The notes beneath the pieces are model-generated. The model saw nothing but the letters and a program-made list of their open reading frames with translations, ran no database searches and was not told the DNA's origin. From positions 1-29,092 of IMG/VR virus record IMGVR_UViG_3300024431_000021: DNA of 29,092 nt; one strand, given 5' to 3'. This document shows, one piece after another, positions 7,920-29,092 of the stretch (the first letter of the stretch is position 1; each line of letters opens with the position of its first letter). Origin of the DNA: a virus. The translations under genes were made by a program, and so were the position numbers.

Positions 7920-8657
7920 CTAAGTAGTATTTAAGGCTTGTTGTTGCTCTACAAGTACAAGTTTTCTCATAAGGTCTACTTCATAATCATCTAAATTTAC
8001 TTTAAATACTGTTAGTGTTTCATCCCAATTAATAATAATATTCACACCTTGTTTAATTTTCTGTCCTGTACAAAACTCCCACATCTTACCGTATGCACAC
8101 ATTTGTACAAAGTAATCTTTTTTAGCACACTCTGATTTAGTTTTACGTTTCCTACTGTTTTTAAAGTCTATAATACTTAACATTCCTTCATATTCTGCTA
8201 TACAATCCACTGTTCCCGCTAATTCTAAATCATCTGAATATATTGATTTTTCTACTCCGTATATATTTCCTATTGTCGTGGCAGAAGCTAAGTGTGCCAT
8301 TAAAGGCTGAAACAAATCAGCAGGGTTAATATCTTCTATATCCTCTGCACTTTTCAATGGTACATATTTAGCATTATTAAGATAATCTTCTGCATATTTA
8401 TGTATAATATTTCCCATTTTTATAGAGTTATCACCAATTTCCTTACATCTAGCCTTAGCCTGTGTTTCACTTATCTTCTCTTTTTTAGCAACAGATGTAA
8501 CCCACCAACCATACCATTCCTTAGTATCTAATAATTTGAGTACGGTAGTTATGCTTGGGTATCTCTTACCTTCATTTGTAATATAATAATGCCCCGATTC
8601 ATCATGGTCAGTCTTGGCGAATGGTCTTATTATATCAGTTTTTATATGTTTAAACAC
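7920..8657 (-). CDS. PD-(D/E)XK nuclease, RecB/Cas4-like
   Basis: 245 aa from a GTG start at 8657. Blocks in order: KRYPSITTVL (32-40), GNIIHKYAEDYL with H86, E136 in GVEKSIY, GTVDCIAEY with D151, SIIDFKNSRK with D164 and K166, and DYFVQMCAYG with Q185 and Y189. This is the RecB-family layout H-E-D-DxK-QxxxY. These enzymes degrade or process DNA ends, and viral copies serve recombination, replication or packaging. No iron-sulfur cysteine cluster of the Cas4 type is obvious. The GTG directly abuts a palindromic divergent promoter. Confidence 0.85.
   Translation of the reverse strand: MFKHIKTDIIRPFAKTDHDESGHYYITNEGKRYPSITTVLKLLDTKEWYGWWVTSVAKKEKISETQAKARCKEIGDNSIKMGNIIHKYAEDYLNNAKYVPLKSAEDIEDINPADLFQPLMAHLASATTIGNIYGVEKSIYSDDLELAGTVDCIAEYEGMLSIIDFKNSRKRKTKSECAKKDYFVQMCAYGKMWEFCTGQKIKQGVNIIINWDETLTVFKVNLDDYEVDLMRKLVLVEQQQALNTT
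7928..7935 (-). promoter_or_regulatory. TATA-like box for the Cys4-terL operon
   Basis: Minus-strand CTTAAATA ends 21 nt before the ATG at 7906 and lies inside the last codons of the upstream nuclease gene. A new transcript therefore probably starts within the 3' end of that gene. Confidence 0.6.
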
Positions 8658-8685
8658 ATAAATACATGGTTATGTATGTATTTAT
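8658..8685. promoter_or_regulatory. Palindromic divergent promoter
   Basis: ATAAATACAT at 8658-8667 and its exact complement ATGTATTTAT at 8676-8685 flank an 8-bp spacer. The palindrome fills the whole gap between GTG (8657, minus) and ATG (8686, plus). Each arm serves as the TATA-like box about 18 nt from the gene on the far side. It could also be an operator for a dimeric regulator. Confidence 0.65.
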
Positions 8686-8838
8686 ATGTTTGCAGAAGTA
8701 GAAAGACTGTTAAAAGAAGTGAATGAAAGTGTTTTAAATACTAATAAGATATTGACAAAAATAGAGGAAAATCTTAGAGTGCCTGATGTTATTACTTGGG
8801 CTAAGGTATTAAAAGAAATACAAGAAATTAAATCGTAG
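8686..8838 (+). CDS. Small helical protein (50 aa)
   Basis: A 50-aa plus-strand frame (MFAEVERLLKEVNESVLNTN...) that reads as one or two amphipathic helices with regular hydrophobic spacing (ILTKIEENL, WAKVLKEIQEIK), compatible with a short coiled coil. It starts directly after the palindromic promoter and its stop overlaps the 3' end of the tail hub gene by 11 bp. This isolated, self-promoted position is typical of a small accessory gene. It may be a regulator or adaptor, but no family is recognised. Confidence 0.6.
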   Translation: MFAEVERLLKEVNESVLNTNKILTKIEENLRVPDVITWAKVLKEIQEIKS

Positions 8839-10963
8839 TTTCGTCTAGTGTAGTATCTAATAACCCGTCACTCATTCTACTTGTATTTACAACATCATCA
8901 TAGTAATCAATATCATTTTCTCCTACCTTAATCATTGTTTTACCTGATGGATAATGGTATTCTAATTGTCTTACAATCATAATTTCATCTAAATCATCAG
9001 TACCCCTTGTTGGATCAAATGTTATACTATCATTATATCCGTTATTACGTTTAACTTGTACTGTATGATTATATCTTACATGGTGTATTGGTGAAGATGA
9101 TTGTATTAAATATTTTGTTGGTGAAACATCCAATGATATATCACCCTGTAAATCTAAAGCAGTTCTGTTGGTTAATTCAAGTAAATCAAACTCATTATCT
9201 ATTTGTTGTACGTTTCTTCTTAATGCTCTTATTATTCCCGATGATGGTGTAAATGATTTTCTTTGTGTTGGAGTTGGAGTAGTAAGATCCATAACATCAA
9301 CATTAGCCCTGCCTGTAAGTGTAACATCATTGACTAATTTAACATCGTTTGTTTCTGAATCTTTAATATGATAAGCAATAGCAGTATCAGATGATTCTAT
9401 TCCGTTTTGATCAAATACATAGTCTGTTGCCTGACCTATATTCTGTTCTATAATTATATTTTTTCTAGGTGTCATATACATAGTAGTATCACTATATAAT
9501 AATAACACTGATAGAAACTGGAAAAATGCACCTATTTCAAGTATATTACTTCTTATATCAAAAACTATTTTTGTTGTTTCCTCAAATAAATCTACGTTTC
9601 TCACTGTAAAACTAGAATCTATTACATCAACCACCTCTTGTAATAATGGAGTAAATGATGGATATGTTATAACTTCCGAATCAGCTACAAAATTACCTGT
9701 CCAATCACTAGACACTCCTGATTCCGTACAAGCTTCACCATTTGTATATAATTTAAATGAACTTGTAAAGCTTTCTCTATCTTGTATTCTTATGGTTGCA
9801 GTTGCATCTCCTAAACTCCCTGATATATATTCAATAACTCTCCCCCTAGCACCACTTGAGCTACCTGTTATAAAGTTACCAATCTGTAAGTTACCAGATC
9901 CGTTATCAAAATCTATAGTTGTTTCTCTAAAATTACGTTCAACTGGTGGATCTCCACTTTCTATTGCATCCCCACCAAGTTTTCCCTTTGTAAATTTAAA
10001 TGAATTACTTTGACACATTAATTTATTTGATACTTGGTTACTGGTTAATTTAACAACCCTTCCCGCAAACTTCATAACCTGTGGAATTGGTTTTGACCAT
10101 CTAATTCTTTCTGCCTCTTCATCATCCAAATCAGTTCCACAATATACTCTAATCTCATGTATTTGTCCTATATACTCATCATTAGTTGAAGTTTCTGTAT
10201 CACCAAATACCATTGGTACAGTTGTTGTAGGTTGCATAGTCCTAGATTCATTTACTGATATTTCTTCAATACCATCAACATAAGCTTTTATTTTTCCATC
10301 TTGACCTCTTTTCACTCTTATATGGACAGGAGATCCGTCTGTGTGCATTATTAAACCATTAGTTGTTCCTTGAGCCGAAAAAATACCACCAGTTGTATGA
10401 TATAGTATATGTACCTTCCATGATGGATCGTCACCATTAGTACCTTGGAATCCTATATCAAGACCTTTGTTACCATCTTTAAGTGACCATAGTATAGGTT
10501 CTTTAGTACCATCCTGAAGCTGTGTTGTATTAGGTGTAAATTTTATATGTATATCAAACTGTTTTGATAGGTCTATTTTTCCACCATCTTCTACTCGTGC
10601 ATTTGGTACTTCCACTCCCTGAGCATCAGCTGTGAAATCAAGTGCATAGTGTCCTCTATATCTTCCCGATGTTACTTTAACAAACCTAGATGTTGGTGGA
10701 TCTATAGGATCTTGATCAAATCCTGATTCATCTAAACATGACAAGTGCATGGGGTATATTGCTCTTAAATAAGTTGTATCTATTATATCCTGTATGTAAG
10801 TTATCTCAAAATTCTCTTTTATATTATTACTCGTTGGAAATGAAACATCAAGTGTATCTGGTTTTTTATTACCTTCCAATTTTACAATCGCACGTAAAGG
10901 AAAATATGCGTGTGTTGAAAAAGGACTCTCATTTGATTTCACTATACATCTAACAAGAGGCAT
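8828..10963 (-). CDS. Tail hub or tail-tip protein with LamG-like insertion
   Basis: 711 aa, directly after the FnIII tail protein in transcription order, where tail-tip or baseplate-hub proteins lie. The N-terminal 60 residues and the part after about residue 295 (MKFAGRVVKLTSN; later SSFTVRNVDLF, TNRTALDLQGDISLD, MIVRQLEYHYPSGKTMIKVG) have the strand-rich look of a hub fold. Residues 100-285 resemble a concanavalin/LamG lectin domain: GHYALDFTA, QFDIHIKFTPN, DGSPVHIRVKR, GKIKAYVDG and EYIGQIHEIRVYCG. Such a lectin-like insertion suggests carbohydrate contact at the tail tip. The domain calls come from sequence pattern; the hub role is from order. Confidence 0.65.
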   Translation of the reverse strand: MPLVRCIVKSNESPFSTHAYFPLRAIVKLEGNKKPDTLDVSFPTSNNIKENFEITYIQDIIDTTYLRAIYPMHLSCLDESGFDQDPIDPPTSRFVKVTSGRYRGHYALDFTADAQGVEVPNARVEDGGKIDLSKQFDIHIKFTPNTTQLQDGTKEPILWSLKDGNKGLDIGFQGTNGDDPSWKVHILYHTTGGIFSAQGTTNGLIMHTDGSPVHIRVKRGQDGKIKAYVDGIEEISVNESRTMQPTTTVPMVFGDTETSTNDEYIGQIHEIRVYCGTDLDDEEAERIRWSKPIPQVMKFAGRVVKLTSNQVSNKLMCQSNSFKFTKGKLGGDAIESGDPPVERNFRETTIDFDNGSGNLQIGNFITGSSSGARGRVIEYISGSLGDATATIRIQDRESFTSSFKLYTNGEACTESGVSSDWTGNFVADSEVITYPSFTPLLQEVVDVIDSSFTVRNVDLFEETTKIVFDIRSNILEIGAFFQFLSVLLLYSDTTMYMTPRKNIIIEQNIGQATDYVFDQNGIESSDTAIAYHIKDSETNDVKLVNDVTLTGRANVDVMDLTTPTPTQRKSFTPSSGIIRALRRNVQQIDNEFDLLELTNRTALDLQGDISLDVSPTKYLIQSSSPIHHVRYNHTVQVKRNNGYNDSITFDPTRGTDDLDEIMIVRQLEYHYPSGKTMIKVGENDIDYYDDVVNTSRMSDGLLDTTLDETTI

Positions 10964-10964
10964 A

Positions 10965-11762
10965 CTAAGCTTGCACCACTACATTTTTAAGTTTAGATGG
11001 TTTGCCAAATCCTAACACTGTAAAAGGCACTACAGCCACTTCATATACTTCATTATCTAATCCACCACTTGATATATCATCTAGGAATGTGACTGGTGGA
11101 GTACCACTTACATCTGTAAACAGAAAAGGATCTGATGTTCCGAATTTTCTGTAGTGTACCCTGTAAAGAGTAAGGGCACTTGTACCGGGATCTTGAGGCA
11201 CATCCCAATCTGCATCTATTTCACCAGATGCGGGTGATGTAACTACTAAATTAAGTGGTTCACTTGAAACATCTACTGCAAATCCTAATGCAACGTTTCC
11301 TTCAAAGAACTTTGCTTGAGCTTTAAATGTAAGTAATTCGGGATCTGCCATGCCAAAACCAAACTGTGCAAATGTACCGTCAAAAGTAATGTCCTGACTG
11401 GTATCTGCATTATCAAGTCGAAGTATTAGTTGATAACTATCTGCGATTGATTTAGGTCTAAATTCTTTCCTGATAAATTCTATCTGTTCTCTTACTGTTG
11501 AAGAAGGAAATCCGGTTGGTGCATCAAATTTTGTTTCTAAATTAACTCCATTATTGTCTTTTACAATCCAGTTTAATGTTATATCAGAACTGTTACCCTC
11601 AATTTTTATAAGTACATTTTCATTAGAATCTTCTTCTGGTAGTGGCATTGGACTTACAGGGGTATTAATATTATATTGTAATCGTTTAAAATTACCCAAT
11701 TTATACCTATATAATTCAGTAGTTGAATTGGCTACAAATTTAACTATAAATATACTACCCAT
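10965..11762 (-). CDS. Tail protein with C-terminal FnIII domain (Dit-like position)
   Basis: 265 aa, placed between the tape measure and the hub, where siphoviruses encode the distal tail protein. The N-terminal 165 residues are mixed beta with a short helix (TVREQIEFIRKEF). Residues of about 168-265 form a fibronectin type III-like domain: PLNLVVTSPASGEIDADWDV, SALTLYRVHYRKFG, VTFLDDISSGG, EVYEVAVVPFTVLGFGKPS. Its ATG overlaps the tape-measure stop (TAATG). FnIII modules on tail proteins usually aid surface adhesion. The Dit label is positional only. Confidence 0.6.
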   Translation of the reverse strand: MGSIFIVKFVANSTTELYRYKLGNFKRLQYNINTPVSPMPLPEEDSNENVLIKIEGNSSDITLNWIVKDNNGVNLETKFDAPTGFPSSTVREQIEFIRKEFRPKSIADSYQLILRLDNADTSQDITFDGTFAQFGFGMADPELLTFKAQAKFFEGNVALGFAVDVSSEPLNLVVTSPASGEIDADWDVPQDPGTSALTLYRVHYRKFGTSDPFLFTDVSGTPPVTFLDDISSGGLDNEVYEVAVVPFTVLGFGKPSKLKNVVVQA

Positions 11763-12961
11763 TATGGAAACACACTCTTTAATGAATCACTTAGGGAGCT
11801 TTTAATATCATCAATAAAATCTGGTATTCCGTTATTGTTAGAATCAGATAACGCAATTATTACTGGATTTATTACTGTTTGTTGTATTTGTTTTTGAGCT
11901 GCACCAGTTATCATGTCTATTAACCCAGTTATCAATCCCCATACTAAATCCATTAATTCCTGAGCACTAGACATAATTGATGTTATTCTAGCATTTACAT
12001 CATCCCATGTTGGTAGACTCAGCCCATCAATCCATGTTGTTATATCTAGTATAAATACATCCCATGTAGGTAGTGAAAAATCTAAATGCCCAATCCATCT
12101 GTCTATAAAACCATTTATTAATCCCCAACCCGGTAATTTACTAACCTGTTCTAATATCCACGCTCTTATACCAGCTCCAATTCCATCAAATGAAGGAAGT
12201 TCTAATGAATCTATCCAATTTGTAACAAATAGTGAAATACCGGCTAGTGAGGGAAGATTTAATGAATCTATCCAGTTTGTAACAAATAGTGAAATACCGG
12301 CTAGTGAGGGAAGGTCTAATGAATCTACCCAATTTGTAACAAATAGTGAAAAATCTGCTAGTGAAGGAAGATTTAAGTTATTTATCCATTTTTCAATTCC
12401 AAGTTGAAGCTTCATAAGATGCCCTTGTACTGAACCAAGTATGGCTTCAATATTAATTATAAACGAACCACCAACCCCACCAAGAGTTGCTATAATTGAA
12501 CCTATTGGATTATTAATGAAAGCTTGACCAGCTTTTGCACCAGCTGTCATAAACCAATTTCTTGAAAGTCTATACCAAGGGATTGCAATATTTCTTAAAA
12601 AGTATAGAATTATAGGTCTGAGAAAGAATCCAATAAAGTCTCCGATTGGTCTTAATATTAACATTATTCCAAAATTAAATAGTTTTAACATTTGTTGTAA
12701 CATTGGAGAGGATTGAATTAACATATCAGTTAGTTTTCTAACCATAGCTACTATTGCTATTACACCTACAGCTATTCCCGCAATTTTAGCTATGTTCTTC
12801 ATCATATTAGCATTTTTTCCACCGCCACCAGCAACAGTGGTCATTTGACTACCAATTCCACCAGCTTTACCGCCACCTACAATATTCATTAGTCGTTGCT
12901 CTATGGCTCTAATCTTAGTATCATCAATATCTATTTTTAGAGTATATACGTTACTGCTCAT
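11762..12961 (-). CDS. Tape measure protein
   Basis: 399 aa, short for the family, which would predict a short tail. It lies right after the frameshifted tail chaperone, the diagnostic position. Gly-rich N-terminus, then hydrophobic helices (about 55-80, IAKIAGIAVGVIAIVAMV; 95-130, GDFIGFFLRPIILYFLRNI). Residues 200-280 hold a 19-residue repeat (NWIDSLNLPSLAGISLFVT) with further W-containing variants after it. The C-terminus contains DSNNNGIPDFID, an acidic calcium-binding-like loop. The ATG overlaps the stop of the frameshift product (ATGA), and its own stop overlaps the next gene (TAATG). It sets tail length and threads the tail tube. Confidence 0.8.
   Translation of the reverse strand: MSSNVYTLKIDIDDTKIRAIEQRLMNIVGGGKAGGIGSQMTTVAGGGGKNANMMKNIAKIAGIAVGVIAIVAMVRKLTDMLIQSSPMLQQMLKLFNFGIMLILRPIGDFIGFFLRPIILYFLRNIAIPWYRLSRNWFMTAGAKAGQAFINNPIGSIIATLGGVGGSFIINIEAILGSVQGHLMKLQLGIEKWINNLNLPSLADFSLFVTNWVDSLDLPSLAGISLFVTNWIDSLNLPSLAGISLFVTNWIDSLELPSFDGIGAGIRAWILEQVSKLPGWGLINGFIDRWIGHLDFSLPTWDVFILDITTWIDGLSLPTWDDVNARITSIMSSAQELMDLVWGLITGLIDMITGAAQKQIQQTVINPVIIALSDSNNNGIPDFIDDIKSSLSDSLKSVFP
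12204..12374 (-). repeat. 57-bp direct repeats in the tape measure gene
   Basis: Three consecutive 57-bp units start at 12204, 12261 and 12318 and are nearly identical in DNA, with a more diverged partial copy on each side. Each unit encodes 19 residues (NWIDSLxLPSLAGISLFVT). The high identity points to recent in-frame duplication. Confidence 0.85.
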
Positions 12962-17081: not shown

Positions 17082-18320
17082 CTAGATTCCTGAAGCTATG
17101 TCTCTAATCTTGGCTTGTGCTTTAAAGTTTCTACAAGTTGTTTCTGCTAACATATTGTACAAAGCTCTGTCGTTGAAAGCTTCGTTTATGAAAGGATAAC
17201 CTTGTTGTCTCTTTCCAGCCTCATAGTAAACTATTGGTTTAAGTACCTGAATACCTATCAATGGTTTATTTGGGGCGTTCTTGTCTGCACTTGTGTTTAA
17301 GATGAATAAATCACCTACTGAACCTTCTGCTGATTGTGGTGTGTCCTTTGAAGGAATGAATGGCAAGCCATATATCGTGGATATATGTAAACCCGCACCT
17401 GTACCAGTAAAAGTGTCAACACCGTTTACGCCAACACTAAATTCTGTTCTCAAGTCTGCTGTGTTTTGAATCCTGTATGCGTTCATGTAGATTGATTGAA
17501 CTTCTGCATAGGTGTCTTGTCCACCAATAAATACAGTTGGTTCTTTTCCACCAGCAATCCTCACATCTGAAAGTACCTTTCTAAGAATAGCATCTGTTAA
17601 GACATCTGCTGTTCCGATTGTACCGGATGGTGAAGTTACTGTTGCATCATAAGTATCAACAGTTCTATCAATTCCGTTACTGTTAGCTGATCTCCAAGGA
17701 TCATAGTTATCAATTACGTTTGCGTGTGACTCAAATGTATATTCTGCGAAAGAAGCTACGATTCGGTCTAATGATTCTAGGTCTAGTTGCTGTGAAGTGT
17801 CGTCTGCTGATACATCAACTGGAATACGTGTGAGCATTAGATTTACTCTTTCCTTGAATTGATCGCTAGCATAGACTCTTTGTTGTGCAAGAGAACCATA
17901 GTTATCATCTCTGCTGTTGTCTACTAATTGTTCCAAAAGCTCAGAAGCCTCGAATACATACTGTAATGTCTTTGGTTTGACAGTTACCTCTTCAACGTCT
18001 GGTTTAATTGCACCTGCAATATCTCCACCTTCTATTGTACCACCAAATTCTGATAGGTTAGATGTTGGAGTGTATAATCCAGCTTTTGCTGAGAAAATTC
18101 TCCATCCTGAAAAGTCCCAAACATATTTTGGTAAAGCTGCGAATATGTTTGCTTCTAGGTTGAAGTTTGCCCAAGCCATAGCACCAAATAGTGGGTTGTA
18201 GTTTCCGCCTGCTCCCGGATCGGTTGTGCTGAAACCAGCCTTTAGTATCTCATCTGGTGTTCGGTTGTAAGTATAGTTTACAAGCTCGTCAATAGTGCGA
18301 AGTCCTAAATAGGTAGACAT
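17082..18320 (-). CDS. Major capsid protein, HK97 fold
   Basis: 412 aa forming the icosahedral shell. It follows the scaffold-like gene by two bases and a GGGGGAG ribosome site precedes the ATG. The protein has an N-terminal arm (residues 1-50), a likely E-loop and P-domain region with long helix TLQYVFEASELLEQLVDNSR, an ERVNLMLTRI spine-helix-like part, and a C-terminal A-domain (PTVFIGGQDTYAEVQSIYM, YGLPFIPSKDTP, LFILNTSADKN, RALYNMLAETTCRNFKAQAK) typical of capsid proteins. Residues 29-45, GFSTTDPGAGGNYNPLF, recur in another gene (22246-22953). The fold call is from pattern and gene order. Confidence 0.88.
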   Translation of the reverse strand: MSTYLGLRTIDELVNYTYNRTPDEILKAGFSTTDPGAGGNYNPLFGAMAWANFNLEANIFAALPKYVWDFSGWRIFSAKAGLYTPTSNLSEFGGTIEGGDIAGAIKPDVEEVTVKPKTLQYVFEASELLEQLVDNSRDDNYGSLAQQRVYASDQFKERVNLMLTRIPVDVSADDTSQQLDLESLDRIVASFAEYTFESHANVIDNYDPWRSANSNGIDRTVDTYDATVTSPSGTIGTADVLTDAILRKVLSDVRIAGGKEPTVFIGGQDTYAEVQSIYMNAYRIQNTADLRTEFSVGVNGVDTFTGTGAGLHISTIYGLPFIPSKDTPQSAEGSVGDLFILNTSADKNAPNKPLIGIQVLKPIVYYEAGKRQQGYPFINEAFNDRALYNMLAETTCRNFKAQAKIRDIASGI

Positions 18321-20941: not shown

Positions 20942-21523
20942 ATGGACTTCTACGTGTATGACAATGTTTACACCTACAACAAACGTGAGCCTTTTAACGG
21001 TGTGCCTACCAGTAGATTAAAGGTTAATTCAATAGATATACAGAGTAACCACTCATTTTGGTTTCACACTGATATGAATTTAGTGACTAATAATGTAAAT
21101 ATACAAAAAAGATATGTGCATATACATGAGGGTATAGGTAGTACAAATCAGATGGAATTTAAGAAAGATCCACTTCATGTAAGCAGAAGTAACATGATAT
21201 ATAATCCTAAAGAAAAAAGGATTGAGATTGGCGGTGGGTGGTTTAAAAAACCTATATTTGCTAAGAAATGTATTTACTATGGAAGCGAGTTACCTCATAA
21301 GAAAATGAACATTGTTGGTGAGTGGTATTATAATTTTGGTGTTGATTCAATGATCTTTATTATAGATTACAGTCCTCAAAAGATACACTTTCATTGGGAA
21401 GATGTAGAAGATGTACCAACACAAGCAGAACAACTAACTAAGATAGCCAAGTTAGAAATAGAGATTGAACAGAAAGAAGCTACTATCGCCCAGCGAAACG
21501 CTGGTCTTGTGTCTGATCTCTAG
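20942..21523 (+). CDS. Hypothetical protein on the plus strand (193 aa)
   Basis: 193 aa, rich in aromatic residues and histidine (MDFYVYDNVYTYNKREPFNG; HSFWFHTDMNLV; KIHFHWEDVEDV), probably a beta-strand domain, ending in a short coiled coil (AEQLTKIAKLEIEIEQKEAT). It is driven by the palindromic promoter and runs against the surrounding virion genes. Its last 41 bases overlap the 3' end of the zinc-ribbon gene on the opposite strand. An accessory gene acquired separately is plausible. Family not recognised. Confidence 0.6.
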   Translation: MDFYVYDNVYTYNKREPFNGVPTSRLKVNSIDIQSNHSFWFHTDMNLVTNNVNIQKRYVHIHEGIGSTNQMEFKKDPLHVSRSNMIYNPKEKRIEIGGGWFKKPIFAKKCIYYGSELPHKKMNIVGEWYYNFGVDSMIFIIDYSPQKIHFHWEDVEDVPTQAEQLTKIAKLEIEIEQKEATIAQRNAGLVSDL

Positions 21524-22025
21524 TAATTCCTTGACCTAATATCTGATTCATATCCTTTCCGAATATACTTCTTTTCTTTCTTTCATCAGGTGCTAGTTTT
21601 GCTCTTCCACCACCTTCTCTATAAGCCGTATGTAATTTCTTTATCCTACGCATACAGGTATCACAAAATGAGGCATTTATCTGCCATATATCGTTGAATT
21701 TCCATTGTTCACATTTATCACACAGTTCCCAAGAAGTTTTCTTTACAACTAGACACATTAATCCCTCTGCTCCACGTTTCTCAATACACTCCCCGCACAT
21801 ATATATCAGGGTACTTAGTATCTTGTCATTCTTACTGCAACCATAACAGTAGCCCTCACTGTAATTATTGATCTTAGTGTGTTCATCAGCCTGTACTCTT
21901 TCCCGAAGTTTCTTAGTTTGATCGTTTTCTTTGGCAGCTCGTTCCTTTAAATCATGTTTCTGAATACGGTCTTTTTGATCTAACCCATCTTCTGTGAAAC
22001 CAAATCTACCGTCATTATTTCCCAT
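21483..22025 (-). CDS. Double zinc-ribbon protein (180 aa)
   Basis: 180 aa. The N-terminal 50 residues are charged helix (KHDLKERAAKENDQTKKLRE). The centre has four CxxC knuckles: GYCYGCSKN, YMCGECIEK, ELCDKCEQW and SFCDTCMRR, enough for two zinc ribbons. The C-terminus is basic and Gln-rich (GGGRAKLAPDERKKRSIFGK, GQGITRDQTQDQ). Such proteins bind nucleic acid or act as small virion parts. The stop of the tiny gene upstream is almost at its ATG, so it is operon-encoded, and its 3' end overlaps the convergent plus-strand gene. Confidence 0.65.
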   Translation of the reverse strand: MGNNDGRFGFTEDGLDQKDRIQKHDLKERAAKENDQTKKLRERVQADEHTKINNYSEGYCYGCSKNDKILSTLIYMCGECIEKRGAEGLMCLVVKKTSWELCDKCEQWKFNDIWQINASFCDTCMRRIKKLHTAYREGGGRAKLAPDERKKRSIFGKDMNQILGQGITRDQTQDQRFAGR

Positions 22026-22112: not shown

Positions 22113-22262
22113 TTAACCGTATATTTCCCTCAAAACAAACAATATTGTCTCCTCAGGTATTCCCTTTGCACTGAAATATTTTACAATATCATAAGCAGTT
22201 ACGAATGGTTTTAACTGTATATAATCTCTTATATTTCGTATTAGATCAGTGTCGTATTGCAT
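22113..22262 (-). CDS. Small helical protein (49 aa)
   Basis: ATG at 22262 gives MQYDTDLIRNIRDYIQLKPF and onward to EETILFVLREIYG, 49 aa. It reads as two or three helices with a turn near SAKGIPEE, a little like a helix-turn-helix unit. It overlaps the 3' end of the 235-aa gene by 17 bp and is followed at once by the 27-aa frame. It fills an otherwise empty gap. Family not recognised. Confidence 0.6.
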   Translation of the reverse strand: MQYDTDLIRNIRDYIQLKPFVTAYDIVKYFSAKGIPEETILFVLREIYG

Positions 22263-22953
22263 ATATCGTTTCCACATCCTTTATTATATCAAGCATTTCT
22301 ATCTCACTTATACTTCCCACATCGTTATATAAATAACTACCGTCTGAAACTCTGGTTCTAATCTTACATTTAGCTGTAATAAACACCCCTAGCTTCGATA
22401 GTAGATTCCTCTTTATCCAAAGCTTCACGCTTATTGGGGTATAATTTTGTGAATACAAATTAGTATTTATGTTTAGTGTATCTGAATTATACCCCCCGCA
22501 ATTTGTTAAAATGTGTAGTTTTTGCAATTTTTGGCGGGGTATAATAGATTTATTTACACCTAATGATGTAATTCCTGATACCCCTATATTTTGACATATT
22601 TGTAAAATACCCTTATAAAATAGGGGTATTTGGGAACAGTTTATTTTTAATCTGAACTTTTGGGAACGTTCTTTATCACATATAACAATTAAATGGTGTC
22701 CATAATTAAACTCAAATTTCTTTTTTGTATAGTTATCCCTTCTAGTATTTCTCCAAGGTGCAGTTAATCTCTTTGCTTTAAAGCCACTGAATACAGGGTT
22801 ATAGTTACTCCCTGCACCACCATCAGTTGTACTAAACCCATTGAATAATATCTCTTCTAGTTCCCTAGCAGTTAATGTCCTAAGATGTAGGTTTTCTCTA
22901 ATTGCATCTAGTTTATTAATAAAATTGATTAAGTGAAGATCGGTTACAGGCAT
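22246..22953 (-). CDS. Protein with a capsid-like N-terminal motif (235 aa), possibly carrying an insertion
   Basis: 235 aa starting at ATG 22953, which overlaps the stop of the repeat protein (TAATG). Residues 39-55 read GFSTTDGGAGSNYNPVF, matching residues 29-45 of the major capsid protein at 14 of 17 positions. LHLRTLTARELEEIL before it also echoes LGLRT and DEIL in the capsid arm. The rest does not resemble a capsid protein. The middle (about residues 95-175) looks poorly protein-like and coincides with the ATACCCC inverted repeats. The C-terminal 45 residues look coding again (GSISEIEMLDIIKDVETIYA). It could be a minor virion protein sharing an assembly signal, or a gene enlarged by an insertion. 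Confidence 0.55.
   Translation of the reverse strand: MPVTDLHLINFINKLDAIRENLHLRTLTARELEEILFNGFSTTDGGAGSNYNPVFSGFKAKRLTAPWRNTRRDNYTKKKFEFNYGHHLIVICDKERSQKFRLKINCSQIPLFYKGILQICQNIGVSGITSLGVNKSIIPRQKLQKLHILTNCGGYNSDTLNINTNLYSQNYTPISVKLWIKRNLLSKLGVFITAKCKIRTRVSDGSYLYNDVGSISEIEMLDIIKDVETIYAIRH
22436..22630. repeat. Cluster of ATACCCC / GGGGTAT inverted repeats
   Basis: Six copies of GGGGTAT or ATACCC(C) lie in under 200 bp. GGGGTATAATT at 22436-22446 pairs exactly with AATTATACCCC at 22485-22495. ATTATACCCCCCGC at 22486-22499 pairs with GCGGGGTATAAT at 22534-22545. ATACCCCTATATTTT at 22578-22592 pairs with AAAATAGGGGTAT at 22617-22629, with a further ATACCC at 22607-22612. A direct TTTGGGAAC pair follows at 22629 and 22659. 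The GC-rich motifs stand out in an AT-rich genome. This may be an origin, a structured RNA or the remains of a mobile element. Confidence 0.7.
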
Positions 22954-25900
22954 TATTGATCCTCTGGTTTTAAGTTATGATCAGTAACATCTTGGGTTCT
23001 TTCAACACCATCATCCCAGCCTGTTACATAGTATTGAGCATCATCATCTTCAAGTCCTAAGAATACATATACGCCTGTCACAGCATTACTAATCACTTCT
23101 GCTATAAAAGTGCTTGTGTTATTTAGGTTATCCTTATGAAGTCTACAAACAACACTTCCCAAAATTGTGCCTACACCGTTACCTAGATATGTTATTCCAG
23201 TAATCTTGAACACTGGATTAATGTCATGTCTTAGATTCCATATTCTAAACACTGTTGCCTGAGCAATGTCGTGTCTTAGATTCCATATTCTACCAATAGT
23301 ACCAGCCAAATCATGTCTAATATTCCATACTCTTCCAATAAAGTCAGATATATCATGTCGTATATTCCATATTCTAAATACTGTCTGTTGTGCAACATCA
23401 TGTCTAATATTCCATATTCTTCCAATGAAGTCAGAAATGTCATGTCTTAGATTCCATACTCTGCCAATTAACTCAGATATGTCATGTCTTATATTCCATA
23501 CTCTTCCAATAAAGTCAGATATATCATGTCTTAGATTCCATGTACGATTAATGAACTCTGCTATATCATGTCGTAAGTTCCATGTTCTTCCAATAAACTC
23601 TCCTATGTCATGTCTTAGATTCCATGTTCTGCTAATGAAATCACTTATGTCATGTCTTAGATTCCATACTCTACCAACAGTACCAGCCAAATCATGTCTA
23701 AGATTCCATGTTCTGTTAATGAACTCACCTATGTCGTGTCTAATATTCCACACTCTACCAATGAAAGCAGATAAGTCATGTCTTAGATTCCATGTTCTAC
23801 CTATTGCAGTCTTTATATCATGTCGTATATTCCATGTACGATTAATGAACTCTGCTATATCATGTCGTAAGTTCCATGTTCTTCCAATGAAGTCAGAAAT
23901 GTCATGTCTTAGATTCCATACTCTGCCAATTAACTCAGATATGTTATGTCTTATATTCCATACTCTTCCAATAAAGTCAGATATATCATGTCGTATGTTC
24001 CATGTACGATTAATGAACTCACCTATGTCGTGTCGTATATTCCATACTCTACCAATGAAAGCAGATAAGTCATGTCGTATATTCCATACTCTACCTATGA
24101 AAGCAGATAAGTCATGTCTTAGATTCCATGTACGATTAATGAACTCTGCTATATCATGTCTTATATTCCAAGTTCTTCCAATAAATTCACCTATGTCATG
24201 TCTTATATTCCATGTTCTTCCAATGAAAGCACTCAAATCATGTCTAAGATTCCATACTCTACCAACAGTACCAGCCAAATCATGTCTAAGATTCCATACA
24301 CGACCTATGAACTCGGCAATATCATGTCTAATATTCCATACTCTTCCAATAGATGTCTTAATGTCATGTCTAATGTTCCATGTTTGTGAAATGAACTCAG
24401 CAATATCATGTCTTATATTCCATACTCTACCTACAGTTCCAGCTAGATCGTGTCTTATATTCCATACTCTACCAACAAACTCAGCAATATCATGTCTAAG
24501 ATTCCATGTTCTACCAATCGAGGTCTTTATATCGTGTCTTAGATTCCATACTCTACCTATTGAAGTCTTAATATCATGTCGTATGTTCCATGTTCTACCT
24601 ATGAACTCAGATATATCATGTCTAATATTCCATACTCTTGTAGCAAATGCAATTACTTGGTGTCTAAGATTCCATGTTCTACCTATCAAGGTCTTTATAT
24701 TGTGTCTTAGATTCCATACTCTACCTATTGAGGTCTTAATATCATGTCTAAGATTCCATGTTCTTCCAATAAATTCAGCAATATCATGTCTTAGATTCCA
24801 TACTCTACCTACAGTTCCAGCTAGATCATGTCTTAGATTCCATGTTCTACCAATTAACTCGGCTATGTCATGTCGTATGTTCCATGTTCTTCCTATTAGA
24901 GTCTTAATATCATGTCTAAGATTCCATGTTCTTCCAATAAATTCAGCAATATCATGTCTGATATTCCATACTCTACCTACAGTTCCAGCTAGATCATGTC
25001 TTAGATTCCAAGTCTGTGAAATGAACTCTTCAATATCATGTCTAATATCCCAAGTCTGTGAAATGAACTCTTCAATATCATGTCTTATATTCCAAGTCTG
25101 TGAAATGAAAGCAGAAATATCATGTCTTAGATTCCACACTCTACCAACAGATCCAGCTAGATCATGTCTTAGATTCCAAGTTTCTGATATGAACTCAGCA
25201 ATATCGTGTCTAATATTCCATACTCTTCCAATAGAGGTCTTAATATCATGTCTAAGATTCCATGTTCTTCCAATAAATTCAGCAATATCATGTCTGATAT
25301 TCCATACACGACCTACAGTTCCAGCTAGATCATGTCTAAGATTCCATACACGACCTACAAACTCTGCAATATCGTGTCTGATATTCCAAGTTCTACCTAT
25401 GAACGCAGATATATCATGTCGTAAATTCCATGTTCTACCAATTAACTCGGCTATGTCATGTCGTATATTCCATGTTCTACCTATGAAATCAGCAATATCA
25501 TGTCTAATATTCCAAGTTCTTGAAATGAAATCAGATATATCATGTCTAAGATTCCATACTCTACCTATGAAATCAGATATATCATGTCTAATATTCCAAG
25601 TCTGATTAATAAACTCTGCAAGATCATGTCTAAGATTCCATACTCTACCTATGAAATCAGATATATCATGTCTTATATTCCATACTCTTCCTATGAACTC
25701 ACCTATGTCATGTCTTAGATTCCATATTCTAAACACTGTTGCCTGAGCTATGTCATGTCTTAGATTCCATATTCTATTAACTTTATCACCTATATCATGT
25801 CTAATATTCCATGTTTGATTAACGAAATCAGAAATATCATGTCTAATATTCCATACTCTATTTACAAATAGGACTGTTATAATATCATGTCTAATATTCC

Positions 25901-26441
25901 ATCTTTCTCTAACCTGACAATTCTCTTTAAGTAATGGTCTACCACTCTCAGTTAATAATTGTATGCCACTCTCAGTTAAAAGTCCACAAGTAATTACTTG
26001 ATGTCTAAGATTCCATATTCTAATTACTGTTTGTTGTGCTACGTCATGTCTTATGTTCCATATTCTCCCGATAGCAGTCTTTATATTATGTCTTATATTG
26101 AAAGTTTGATTAACGAAAGCAGATATATCATGTCTTAAATTCCATATTCTAAATACTGTCTGTTGTGCTACATCGTGTCTTATATTCCAAACTCTACCAA
26201 TGAACTCAGAAATATCATGTCTTATATTCCATACTCTACCAACAAACGCAGATACATCATGCCTAATGTTCCATGTTTGACCTGTCTTACCACCAAGATC
26301 ATGTCTAATATTCCAAGTTCGGGAAACTGTTTGTATAGCACGTTTATCTTCTTTTCTAAGATAACCTTTGATTAATACAGCAGTACCAGTAGTTCTTTCT
26401 AAACTTGCTCTAATATAACCCTTAATAGGTACAGTTACCAT
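22953..26441 (-). CDS. Giant WN(I/L)RHD repeat protein, putative fibre (1162 aa)
   Basis: 1162 aa. A short N-terminus contains two related pieces (PIKGYIRASLERTTG, LIKGYLRKEDKR). Then about 72 tandem units follow, consensus R-V/T-W-N-I/L-R-H-D-I-x-x-F-I-G, almost always 14 residues. A few are 15 residues (VAQQTVF or IAQATVF endings), and there is one break near residue 115 with a duplicated LLTESG motif. The C-terminal 85 residues are a beta domain (GVGTILGSVVCRLH, TFIAEVISNAVTGVYVFLG, YYVTGWDDGVER). AGGAG precedes the ATG. The neighbouring upstream genes carry the same repeat. A long rod-like virion fibre is the simplest reading; short WNxR-type repeats are, from memory, seen in some phage virion proteins. 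Confidence 0.7.
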   Translation of the reverse strand: MVTVPIKGYIRASLERTTGTAVLIKGYLRKEDKRAIQTVSRTWNIRHDLGGKTGQTWNIRHDVSAFVGRVWNIRHDISEFIGRVWNIRHDVAQQTVFRIWNLRHDISAFVNQTFNIRHNIKTAIGRIWNIRHDVAQQTVIRIWNLRHQVITCGLLTESGIQLLTESGRPLLKENCQVRERWNIRHDIITVLFVNRVWNIRHDISDFVNQTWNIRHDIGDKVNRIWNLRHDIAQATVFRIWNLRHDIGEFIGRVWNIRHDISDFIGRVWNLRHDLAEFINQTWNIRHDISDFIGRVWNLRHDISDFISRTWNIRHDIADFIGRTWNIRHDIAELIGRTWNLRHDISAFIGRTWNIRHDIAEFVGRVWNLRHDLAGTVGRVWNIRHDIAEFIGRTWNLRHDIKTSIGRVWNIRHDIAEFISETWNLRHDLAGSVGRVWNLRHDISAFISQTWNIRHDIEEFISQTWDIRHDIEEFISQTWNLRHDLAGTVGRVWNIRHDIAEFIGRTWNLRHDIKTLIGRTWNIRHDIAELIGRTWNLRHDLAGTVGRVWNLRHDIAEFIGRTWNLRHDIKTSIGRVWNLRHNIKTLIGRTWNLRHQVIAFATRVWNIRHDISEFIGRTWNIRHDIKTSIGRVWNLRHDIKTSIGRTWNLRHDIAEFVGRVWNIRHDLAGTVGRVWNIRHDIAEFISQTWNIRHDIKTSIGRVWNIRHDIAEFIGRVWNLRHDLAGTVGRVWNLRHDLSAFIGRTWNIRHDIGEFIGRTWNIRHDIAEFINRTWNLRHDLSAFIGRVWNIRHDLSAFIGRVWNIRHDIGEFINRTWNIRHDISDFIGRVWNIRHNISELIGRVWNLRHDISDFIGRTWNLRHDIAEFINRTWNIRHDIKTAIGRTWNLRHDLSAFIGRVWNIRHDIGEFINRTWNLRHDLAGTVGRVWNLRHDISDFISRTWNLRHDIGEFIGRTWNLRHDIAEFINRTWNLRHDISDFIGRVWNIRHDISELIGRVWNLRHDISDFIGRIWNIRHDVAQQTVFRIWNIRHDISDFIGRVWNIRHDLAGTIGRIWNLRHDIAQATVFRIWNLRHDINPVFKITGITYLGNGVGTILGSVVCRLHKDNLNNTSTFIAEVISNAVTGVYVFLGLEDDDAQYYVTGWDDGVERTQDVTDHNLKPEDQ
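23220..26320 (-). repeat. Tandem array of about 72 units of 42 bp
   Basis: The DNA repeats with period 42 bp (core on the plus strand TCATGTCTTAGATTCCAT with small changes), with a few 45-bp units and one interruption near 25905-26000. Units differ mainly at the six codons after RHD, drawn from a small set of versions. The antisense strand also stays open for long stretches because the period is a multiple of three. Confidence 0.95.
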
Positions 26442-26450
26442 GATTTACTC

Positions 26451-28037
26451 CTATGAGGCAATAAATTCACCTGACATATCCCATTCATCAGGACTTAGTT
26501 CTTTCAGATAAAGTATTACATATACAGAGCCATCTACATCTACAGCGAAGTTATGTGTTCCTAAAGTTCCGTCTGTTGTTGCACTAGCTGTTTGTGTATA
26601 TGTATATGGAAATGAACCAGTCTTTTTGAACAAAACTACCCCGACTGAGCCAACTATAATATCATCGTTATCTCTACTTTCTGCTGGAACAATAACAAAC
26701 GCAGCTATGTCATGCCGTATATTCCATGTACGACCTATTAATTCTGCTATATCATGCCTTATATTGAAAGTTTGATTAACAAAGTCAGATATATCATGTC
26801 GAATATCCCAAGTACGACCAACTAAAATAGCACTAAATCCTTCCCAAGCTACCCAGCCTACACCCCATGCGTTACTATCGTTTGTAGTCCATGTAATAGT
26901 AAATCCACCAGTATCAAAGGATTTGAAATCTGCCTCAGAATCTATAGTTGCATTACTAGCATTTGTATGAAGTCCAATTACTTTAGTTTCAGACCATAAG
27001 GAACTATCTACGACAGGATCATCAGTTGCATTTTCTCGCATATCAGAAGATGAATATGTTTCAAGTGTATCAAATGCACAACCGTAAGCTGCGTGGTATT
27101 CATTTGATCTTGCTGTATTAACCGCTTCACCACCAGCAGTAACAAAAGAAACCATTGTAGGATCACAACCAATACTTGTTATAGCATCATCGGTAGGTGC
27201 ACCACTTGTTGATTTATTAAATGTACCAAGTTGAACGTCTGCTGGTGTAGTAAGCTTCATGTATAATCCACATACTATACCCCCTGCGTTCATAGGAGCA
27301 TCAGAAGTATTATAAGTTAATCCATCAGTATCATAACTGACTAACTCAGCCTCACTATCATATTGAGCAGTTTTCTTTCTAACTGAAAACATACCATTAG
27401 AATGTAATGCTCCACCACCTTGAAGTGTCTTTGTAATCTTATTCTTGTTAGAACCAGATAAATTCCATCTATCACTAGCTGATTTTCCGACTCCATATGC
27501 AAAAATAATCTTATTAGCAAAAGCATTAGCAAGTACATTTCCATCAGTAACAATCATACCAAAGTCAGGCTGGAATCCCATTCCTGTTTCAGAATGATTA
27601 CCTGTTGTAGCAGATAATCCAAATTCAAATACAGTAATATTGGTTACATCAGTTCCACCCCATGCTTCGACTTTAAATTTCATTAATGTAGTTGTTGATG
27701 TTGTCCAGTCTAATGTAATACCATCACTATCCATAGAATCGAGGTCGGCTTCTTCTTCTATAGTTCCAGTATTACTTATGATTCCCATTATAGAAGTGTT
27801 TGAATGTCTTTCTCCACCAAGGTCAGTTCCCTGATGCTTGGTGTGTATCAAACAACCTCTATTAGTAGATGAAGTTCCAAATCCTATTGAGTAATTAATA
27901 TCTGTCTTTTGTCCACTTGCAGTATTCTCTACCATTGTAATTTTTACACCTTTAGGTAAAAATCCAAATCCAGTTATTGCTTGTGTACCTGTTCCACTTC
28001 TTTTTTCAAATACTCCCGCAAATACTTTAAGAGTCAT
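26451..28037 (-). CDS. Fibre-like protein with three related domains and three WNxRHD units (528 aa)
   Basis: 528 aa. Three related beta domains of about 120-135 residues occupy 1-405. Each ends with a version of the same motif: EEADLDSMDSDGITLDW, SEAELVSYDTDGLTYN and SEADFKSFDTGGFTITW, and each has a Gly-rich GxGFxPxxxxI-like start. DGF/IT-type domains of this sort occur in phage tail and fibre proteins. Residues 406-447 are three repeat units (RTWDIRHDISDFVN, QTFNIRHDIAELIG, RTWNIRHDIAAFV). The last 80 residues form a beta domain like the end of the 1162-aa protein. It overlaps the 114-aa gene by 11 bp. A host-binding or fibre role is likely. Confidence 0.65.
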   Translation of the reverse strand: MTLKVFAGVFEKRSGTGTQAITGFGFLPKGVKITMVENTASGQKTDINYSIGFGTSSTNRGCLIHTKHQGTDLGGERHSNTSIMGIISNTGTIEEEADLDSMDSDGITLDWTTSTTTLMKFKVEAWGGTDVTNITVFEFGLSATTGNHSETGMGFQPDFGMIVTDGNVLANAFANKIIFAYGVGKSASDRWNLSGSNKNKITKTLQGGGALHSNGMFSVRKKTAQYDSEAELVSYDTDGLTYNTSDAPMNAGGIVCGLYMKLTTPADVQLGTFNKSTSGAPTDDAITSIGCDPTMVSFVTAGGEAVNTARSNEYHAAYGCAFDTLETYSSSDMRENATDDPVVDSSLWSETKVIGLHTNASNATIDSEADFKSFDTGGFTITWTTNDSNAWGVGWVAWEGFSAILVGRTWDIRHDISDFVNQTFNIRHDIAELIGRTWNIRHDIAAFVIVPAESRDNDDIIVGSVGVVLFKKTGSFPYTYTQTASATTDGTLGTHNFAVDVDGSVYVILYLKELSPDEWDMSGEFIAS

Positions 28038-28371
28038 CTCTCATTTCCTGTGCTTTTGTAATGATCTTTAGAAAAAGATCAGTATCAATAGTCATACCAC
28101 ATTTAATACCATCTGGTTGACATTCATCGGGATATGAAAAACCATCACCTTTATTGCACCCTTCAAATCTAATTCCATGTTGATTTTTCCACATACAATA
28201 AAGCCCTGCTCCTTTTGATATAACTTCTGGTTTACCATCTTCGTATCTTAATAGAATTGCTTGGACATTTTCATTTGGTGCATTGTGCCATGTATCAATA
28301 TTATCTCCTTTGATAACTGTCTCATCACCATAGAAAATATACCACTCTTTAATCTTAAGTTGAAAAGGCAT
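28027..28371 (-). CDS. Phage-type hypothetical protein (114 aa)
   Basis: 114 aa from ATG 28371 (MPFQLKIKEWYIFYGDET), which overlaps the upstream TAA as TAATG. A TTG three codons earlier is less likely as a start. EWYIFYGDETVIKGDNIDTW followed by AILLRYEDG resembles a widespread small phage family that reads WxVFYxDGS...WxxAPxxGVQ, recalled from memory. The later part has cysteines in LYCMWKNQHG, EGCNKGDG and DECQPDGIKCG that could bind metal. The role in those phages is unknown, but they sit near tail and fibre genes, as here. Confidence 0.6.
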   Translation of the reverse strand: MPFQLKIKEWYIFYGDETVIKGDNIDTWHNAPNENVQAILLRYEDGKPEVISKGAGLYCMWKNQHGIRFEGCNKGDGFSYPDECQPDGIKCGMTIDTDLFLKIITKAQEMRDDS

Positions 28372-28799
28372 TAGTTCCAAACCACATCATTAAACGCTAG
28401 AAGTTGTATAGCTGCAATTAATGAATAATCCCTTATGACCATTGGATAGTCATGTGCACCCGGTGGAATATCAGATGAGAAGCCTTCTTCAATTAACATA
28501 GTATTATCATCCATCCAATAATTCGTAGCATCATCACTATCTGTATTAGTATGAATTAAAAATCTATAGTTACGCCATCTGAGAACTCCATCTGATTCAT
28601 ATACACCAAATCGTTGATTTTGAAATAAAACAACAGATACTAAGTTTGCATGATCTAAATTATTCCATGCAATTTTAAATACAATATCTGCACTTAAATC
28701 TGCACTAATTATATCCCCATTTAACATATAGGCTCTAAAACCCGCAGCTCTTCTTACAAATGCTTGACCGGGGTTTTCTTGCCCAACAACTACTGACAT
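28371..28799 (-). CDS. Hypothetical virion-region protein (142 aa)
   Basis: 142 aa starting MSVVVGQENPGQAFVRRAAG. Probably alpha-beta: SADIVFKIAWNNLDHANLVS, FLIHTNTDSDDATNYWMDDN, then a C-terminal helix YSLIAAIQLLAFNDV. It is the first gene of the fibre operon, with a TATA-like box 21 nt before the ATG. Position next to the repeat and fibre genes suggests a virion or assembly role. Family not recognised. Confidence 0.55.
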   Translation of the reverse strand: MSVVVGQENPGQAFVRRAAGFRAYMLNGDIISADLSADIVFKIAWNNLDHANLVSVVLFQNQRFGVYESDGVLRWRNYRFLIHTNTDSDDATNYWMDDNTMLIEEGFSSDIPPGAHDYPMVIRDYSLIAAIQLLAFNDVVWN

Positions 28800-28820
28800 G
28801 AATGATATATATGATTTTGG

Positions 28821-28828
28821 TATTTAAG
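28821..28828 (-). promoter_or_regulatory. TATA-like box for the fibre operon
   Basis: Minus-strand CTTAAATA ends 21 nt before the ATG at 28799. No further gap is large enough for a promoter until after the 235-aa gene, so one transcript may cover all fibre and repeat genes. Confidence 0.6.
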
Positions 28829-28873
28829 TTTGTAGGTACTTTTAAGTTATTATGCCTGAATTATAGACATCAC

Positions 28874-29092
28874 TCATATCAGAGTTTCACCTGTTATTAC
28901 GTTGCTTGTTAAATTTGCATTTCTTTTCTTCATTATTATTTCTACTGGATTAACTATTGGAAATGCTTTAAATGGTGTTACTTGGTGTCTTAGATTCCAT
29001 ACTCTACCTATTGAGGTCTTAATATCATGTCTAAGATTCCATACTCTACCAACAGTACCATCCATATCATGTCTAAGATTCCACACTCTTGT
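28874..29092 (-). CDS. C-terminal end of another WN(I/L)RHD repeat protein (partial)
   Basis: The frame is open to the right edge and reads TRVWNLRHDMDGTVG, RVWNLRHDIKTSIG, RVWNLRHQVTPF, then a non-repeat tail KAFPIVNPVEIIMKKRNANL to a TGA at 28874. These three units are the same 14-residue repeat as in the two downstream genes, in an order similar to units inside the 1162-aa array. The 5' part lies outside the window, so total length and repeat number are unknown. An apparent start at 29086 is only a GTG valine codon inside a repeat. Confidence 0.85.
   Translation of the reverse strand, partial: TRVWNLRHDMDGTVGRVWNLRHDIKTSIGRVWNLRHQVTPFKAFPIVNPVEIIMKKRNANLTSNVITGETLI

Follow-up and report, generated by a model that had tools for sequence, protein, structure and literature searches.

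What does a tailed virus build from a protein that consists largely of a single 14-residue unit, and what does the recurrence of that unit in neighbouring genes say about its role? Both questions are raised by a 29,092-nt stretch of viral DNA (IMG/VR record IMGVR_UViG_3300024431_000021, positions 1 to 29,092; hereafter the window). We propose that its WN[IL]RHD units form the stalks of virion appendages and that such stalk repeats can be exchanged; the genes lie in an accessory island of a probably thaumarchaeal virus. We regard this as the probable explanation, with some reserve.

The window comes from a siphovirus-like tailed virus, in which PHROGs profiles recognise the terminase large subunit (TerL), the portal, the head protease, the major capsid protein (MCP) and a tail tube-like gene. 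The MCP matches PHROG 24667 (major head protein) and is related to that of the HCTV/HVTV haloviruses (23% identity across 98% of its length, E 2e-17), a homology that the virus shares with the HCTV/HVTV-related archaeal tailed viruses. In IMG/VR we found 43 relatives with MCP identities of 76–99%. The host is most probably a marine ammonia-oxidising archaeon, a call based on a single gene, RadA, of the sibling contig L050 (99.7–99.9% identical to the window where the two overlap): all 44 cellular matches to it among bacterial and archaeal genomes were to Thaumarchaeota, at 45–50% identity, with search patterns derived from the query itself. A search for proviruses with this MCP in 201 genomes of the order of a Nitrosopumilus genome, run with no positive control, returned none.

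Two features at a distance from the repeat genes deserve mention. A 57-nt tandem repeat at 12191–12376 (3.3 copies, 89%) corresponds to the 19-residue LPSLAGISLFVTNWIDSLN repeat in a 399-aa protein that is the putative tape measure. The structural module's other end (99–2556) encodes three small proteins that start with MPDF (MPDFSTF, MPDFTNF and, from an inner ATG, MPDFNLF), perhaps members of a paralogous family; the fetched loci contained relatives of the 205-aa member and of no other.

The WN[IL]RHD repeat and its evolution

An earlier note on this DNA had described a 14-residue repeat common to three adjoining genes, with about 72 units in the first protein (P0001), three in the second (P0002) and at least three in a gene cut by the right edge. 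The repeat is real, the open reading frames, coordinates and strand were all correct, and counting by regular expression gave 72, 3 and 3 visible units (Table 1). L050 contains the whole of the edge gene (8619–9164), which encodes 181 aa with 8 units. Across the whole window and the fetched pieces of L050, no unit lay outside these three genes. The array of P0001 follows a short N-terminus with IKGYIR motifs. Unbroken 14-residue spacing holds for 64 of its units, five have 15 residues (VAQQTVFRI/AQATVFRI type) and one has 16, and the array is interrupted once, by 38 residues after residue 143. Tandem Repeats Finder (TRF) called it at 23272–25860 with a period of 42/84 and 70% matches. The figure of 72 stems from one metagenome assembly, L050 breaking off 84 nt past P0002, just inside P0001.

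Table 1. Repeat genes, island neighbours and capsid-like segments in the window.
Feature	Position	Strand	Remarks
P21483, conserved gene	21483..22025	(-)	right island boundary; directly after portal in island-less relatives
P0004, 235 aa, last island gene	22246..22953	(-)	candidate capsid anchor or adaptor
29-residue capsid-like segment of P0004	22780..22866	(-)	18/29 identical to MCP, E 2e-8
Matching MCP segment, residues 20–48	18177..18263	(-)	within MCP gene 17082–18320
P0001, 1162-aa repeat protein	22953..26441	(-)	residues 1–42 N-terminus, 43–1081 array, ~1072–1162 C-terminal domain
C-terminal domain of P0001	22956..23228	(-)	68% identical to C-terminus of L021 protein with other repeat
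Array of 72 WN[IL]RH[DNQ] units, mostly 42 nt	23199..26315	(-)	regular expression and TRF
P0002, 528 aa	26451..28037	(-)	three ~130-aa domains (residues 1–405), 3 units, C-terminal domain
Three WN/FN-IRHD units of P0002	26685..26810	(-)	regular expression; three DEILDL-type units at this place in the L051 homologue
Island gene, 117 aa	28027..28380	(-)	84% identical homologue in L051
Island gene, 142 aa	28371..28799	(-)	71% identical homologue in L051
Right-edge repeat gene, 3' part, open ORF	28874..29092	(-)	3 visible units
Three visible units of right-edge gene	28958..29083	(-)	regular expression

The consensus unit reads W-N-[IL]-R-H-D-[ILV]-x-x-[F/x]-[IV]-[G/N/S]-[R/Q]-[TV]. In the 64 units with regular spacing, R4 and H5 never change and W1 and N2 do so once each; constraint is strongest at these four residues (and D6), alongside aliphatic residues at 3, 7 and 11 and T/V at 14. 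The 14-residue unit of the earlier note holds, with its hydrophobic positions 3, 5, 9 and 13 corrected to this pattern and with the six residues after the core being, as a minor correction, positions 7–12.

Pairwise Nei–Gojobori type counts over the 64 units gave a pS of ~0.55–0.63 throughout, close to saturation. The core W, N, R, H and D has a pN of only 0.019 (pN/pS 0.03), while positions 8–14 are nearly free (pN/pS 0.72). High pS with a near-invariant core indicates units that are old on the scale of synonymous change and whose core is maintained by selection at the protein level. With pS at ~0.6, most of the array is old and does not represent a zone of fast shuffling. Copying has nevertheless left traces in the DNA. 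Against a protein-preserving codon shuffle, a null that keeps neither local codon preference nor the common descent of neighbouring units, the array contains 26 exact matches of at least 30 nt (6.5 expected), the longest being 71 nt (shuffle mean 38; p 0.002). The right-edge gene in turn has a 58-nt exact block in common with it (against a null mean of 15; p 0.002), and the excess of exact blocks points to units having been copied or exchanged. Exact blocks between the array and P0002 were nothing unusual by the same shuffle (p 0.27). The modular exchange between genes that had been suggested is accordingly borne out within the array and with the right-edge gene (p ~0.002 each) and not with P0002. 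These comparisons support local copying within the array and exchange with the right-edge gene, presumably by recombination.

The conformation of the repeat is predicted inconsistently. AlphaFold2 folded 13 units into one long helix at low confidence (pLDDT 73.5, pTM 0.32; other models 28–64), and adjacent repeats became helical again when the C-terminal domain was included. The invariant W, N and H would then occupy heptad positions b, c and f, the outer positions of a coiled coil, which is odd for such a structure. The hydrophobic moment of the window array is higher at 160 degrees (0.48, beta) than at 100 degrees (0.35, helix). The C-terminal domain of P0001 is predicted as five strands in a beta-sandwich-like arrangement (core block mean pLDDT 84–86). 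On its own it has no match in Pfam or NCBIfam, and a fold search against the PDB gave nothing below E 0.001; the best matches, a macroglobulin-like domain, transthyretin and Ig folds, superposed poorly.

The accessory island and its capsid-like segment

The repeat genes lie in an island of ~13.7 kb, a distance pieced together from two contigs (L050 and the window), with the portal gene on one side and the head-protease and capsid genes on the other. Of the 43 sampled relatives, 20 have contigs that cover the junction between portal and P21483 and show no island there, the two genes being 151–322 bp apart and a P0004 homologue absent; some of these contigs are near-duplicates, so that they do not amount to 20 independent cases. 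In L054, which derives from the same virus as L037, the spacing is 8,663 bp. In each of the five island viruses that show the right boundary (window, L007, L021, L037 and L038), P0004 is the gene immediately upstream of P21483. What lies further inside the island varies, including a 1095-aa propeller-like protein with a weak BNR match (L050), a LamG protein (L051) and a right-handed beta-helix protein (L037). Such variable, cassette-like gene content among close relatives is as expected of appendage proteins. Within P0002, the ~130-aa domains (26823–28037) resemble one another (pairwise identity 25–33%, E 1e-7 to 7e-11) and have no Pfam match. Taken with the linked propeller, LamG and beta-helix genes, the position of the repeat genes makes a virion-appendage role likely; the place of the island among head genes speaks against a tail fibre in the strict sense. 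In L108, a virus with THDTDS-type repeats, the island also carries an apparent methyltransferase-like gene (L108:3781–4422, LDVGGCIGNYSHLGKKLG), whose product might modify a sugar or a protein at the surface.

Residues 30–58 of P0004 (GFSTTDGGAGSNYNPVF) match the N-terminal region of the MCP (Table 1), and L037 has an MCP-like segment at the same place with a weaker score (E 0.002). The segment is possibly a capsid-docking motif or a processing signal common to both proteins, and P0004 may fix the appendage to the head.

Repeat types in related viruses

The C-terminal domain of P0001 is kept in L021, a close relative, at 68% identity over 85 residues. The array before it consists there of 14- and 15-residue units of a different kind (THDTDSVLKKLDNV and THDTDSYLLKKGLE) and not of WN[IL]RHD, and a P0004 homologue (38%) follows the array gene's C-terminal domain. 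L108, from the same sample, has L021-type units in a single polypeptide comprising a propeller-like region, a pair of sandwich-type regions separated by two units, and then an array. Its propeller-like region is 27% identical to the 1095-aa island protein of L050 (E 8e-19). A possible origin of L108 and L021 as two ends of one gene found no support in an end overlap. In L051, a more distant relative, the replacement is of another type: its P0002 homologue (~51–54% identity; 54% over residues 1–400) carries three 20-residue DEILDL (DEILDLVED) units in place of the three WNIRHD units of P0002, and an adjoining ORF of at least 795 aa, next to the LamG protein, is built from the same DEILDLVED unit.

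The array of P0001 scored 38.9 bits against that of L021, above all of 40 column-permuted controls (at most 34.7), so that the two may be remote variants of a single 14-residue repeat. Against the L051 array it did not exceed its 40 column-permuted controls, and by that test the 20-residue type is unrelated to the other two. Replacement of the repeat type is seen in three viruses, namely the window with L050, L021 with L108, and L051. Scans with P0001, its C-terminal domain and P0004 yielded few loci, and the P0001 scan missed even L050, probably through repeat filtering. The pattern of replacement suggests exchange of entire repeat types between related viruses, with the flanking domains left in place. 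We know of no earlier description of a flank kept at 68% identity beside a swapped repeat type, with one type extending over several genes.

Possible roles and known counterparts

How might these elements work together? In the explanation that we favour, each WN[IL]RHD unit would be a repeating segment of an extended stalk in virion appendage proteins. Globular, putatively binding domains (beta-propeller-like, the triple-domain P0002, LamG in a relative) would be combined with short unit runs, one long run and a small C-terminal beta-sandwich, and P0004, with its copied capsid N-terminal segment, may anchor the appendage to the head; the whole would be displayed on the virion surface. Recombination at the 42-nt DNA repeat would copy units both within the array and from gene to gene, with at least two genes involved, and whole repeat types would swap between related viruses as the flanking domains stay. 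If so, these swaps are a natural experiment that shows which features a fibre repeat has to retain: a period near 14 and a few hydrophobic positions. Ammonia-oxidising archaea are very abundant in the ocean, and the locus may offer a first handle on virus attachment to them; the capsid-like segment of P0004 turns anchoring into a testable idea.

A different role for the units would be homotypic docking, with the long array as a backbone, the runs of 3 and 8 units as tags that bind like to like, and the type replaced in all genes together. Each repeat-bearing virus has a single repeat type, which makes up a long array and in two of the three viruses also short runs in other proteins; P0002 has exactly three units, and so has its L051 homologue in the corresponding position, each protein with the type of its own virus. 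Gene-to-gene copying explains this pattern equally well, and in L108 the short and long runs sit on one polypeptide, leaving docking as a minority reading that is unlikely to be correct. Somewhat less probable still is its extension to a private assembly code, in which capsid-anchored appendages would use a virus-specific repeat on backbone and tags alike and the whole type would be replaced at once.

Tape measure proteins of phages that infect Gram-positive bacteria typically have Trp-marked repeats, and P0001 could be such a protein or another internal helical ruler. Its array matches PHROG 58 (tape measure, E 6e-24) and, weakly, Paenibacillus tape measure proteins (E 4e-3), and AlphaFold2 prefers a helix, with the low confidence noted above. 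W/F-marked repeats with duplications and losses have been described in tape measure proteins, with a period of 11 or 11-11-18 (PMC3271669). The period of P0001, however, is 14 (some 15) rather than 11, its invariant residues sit awkwardly for a coiled coil, and its units also occur in a different protein, P0002. P0001 is flanked by the portal gene and the gene of the head protease, as part of an island missing from 20 relatives, whereas the place expected of a tape measure gene, between a small post-tail-tube-like gene and the distal tail genes, is taken by the 399-aa ORF at 11762–12961. We consider a tape measure role improbable. Least probable of all is neutral growth of a 42-nt repeat by slippage or recombination into a functionless, disordered or loosely folded spacer: exact DNA blocks, tandem structure and the other repeat types of relatives, which suggest that sequence is uncritical, speak for it, but it is disfavoured by near-saturated synonymous sites beside an almost invariant core (pN/pS 0.03), a regular hydrophobic pattern and a 14/15-aa spacing in frame.

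Stalk repeats on virion appendages, the reading we prefer, can be compared with characterised families. As the earlier note had supposed, no family with exactly WN[IL]RHD emerged, matches in Pfam, NCBIfam and PHROGs being patchy repeat artefacts. Those in Pfam and NCBIfam (Herpes_UL92, BAR_4 and other unrelated families) are summed over repeats with no single stretch passing the cut-off; the PHROGs matches are likewise sums, apart from three stretches for PHROG 58. A match to a Streptomyces linear plasmid (E 3e-71) reflects a simple HNVSMLL repeat, and one in a single genome of the 201 from the order of a Nitrosopumilus genome involves a different repeat in another reading frame; both are artefacts. 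A PDB sequence search gave nothing below E 0.7, and tblastn found the repeats of L021 and L051 in none of the isolate phages. Bacterial proteins with LRYDI-type repeats look similar to WN[IL]RHD units. Similar repeats of 14 residues are nevertheless present in phage proteins annotated as virion components.

The closest of these lie in the C-terminal part of gp15 (tail sheath stabiliser and completion protein) of KVP40-like vibriophages, exemplified by Vibrio phage QD01 (IDWSVRSDLSATTD). gp15 is a virion protein, and its repeats, like those of P0001, have a period of 14 and, in the P0001 register, the pattern W-x-[IV]-R-x-x-[IL]; the two sets score 74.7 bits against a maximum of 59.3 in 40 column-permuted controls. 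The gp15 repeats are fewer and more divergent and the host is bacterial, and P0001, with its 42 pre-array residues and its place among archaeal virus head genes, has neither the N-terminal domain nor the genomic setting of gp15. The likeness may reflect homology or convergence. In MG592456.1 (238014–238550), the annotation of a vibriophage tail sheath stabiliser gene lists its repeats as CRISPR spacers, which is probably an error caused by their repetitive nature.

A large tail protein of Aeromonas phages BUCT552 and PhAER-6 ends in repeats (APYNLRSTVQAELL) with the same 14-residue period in a [WY]-N-[IL]-R-x-x-[IV] register, scoring above all column-permuted controls. Unlike those of P0001, its units each contain a proline and are fused to a 1200-aa tail protein. 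Hydrophobic moments favour beta in both phage arrays (Vibrio and Aeromonas) and helix in that of L021. Tape measure proteins resemble P0001 in their Trp-marked repeats and differ in period, gene position and domain context (PMC3271669). In crAss-like phages, arrays of tandem BACON domains are reported as evolving parts of a phage protein (PMC6949934); there each repeat is a whole domain, whereas the units of P0001 have 14 residues and are replaced as a type. As a kind, repeat stalks on virion proteins are already known.
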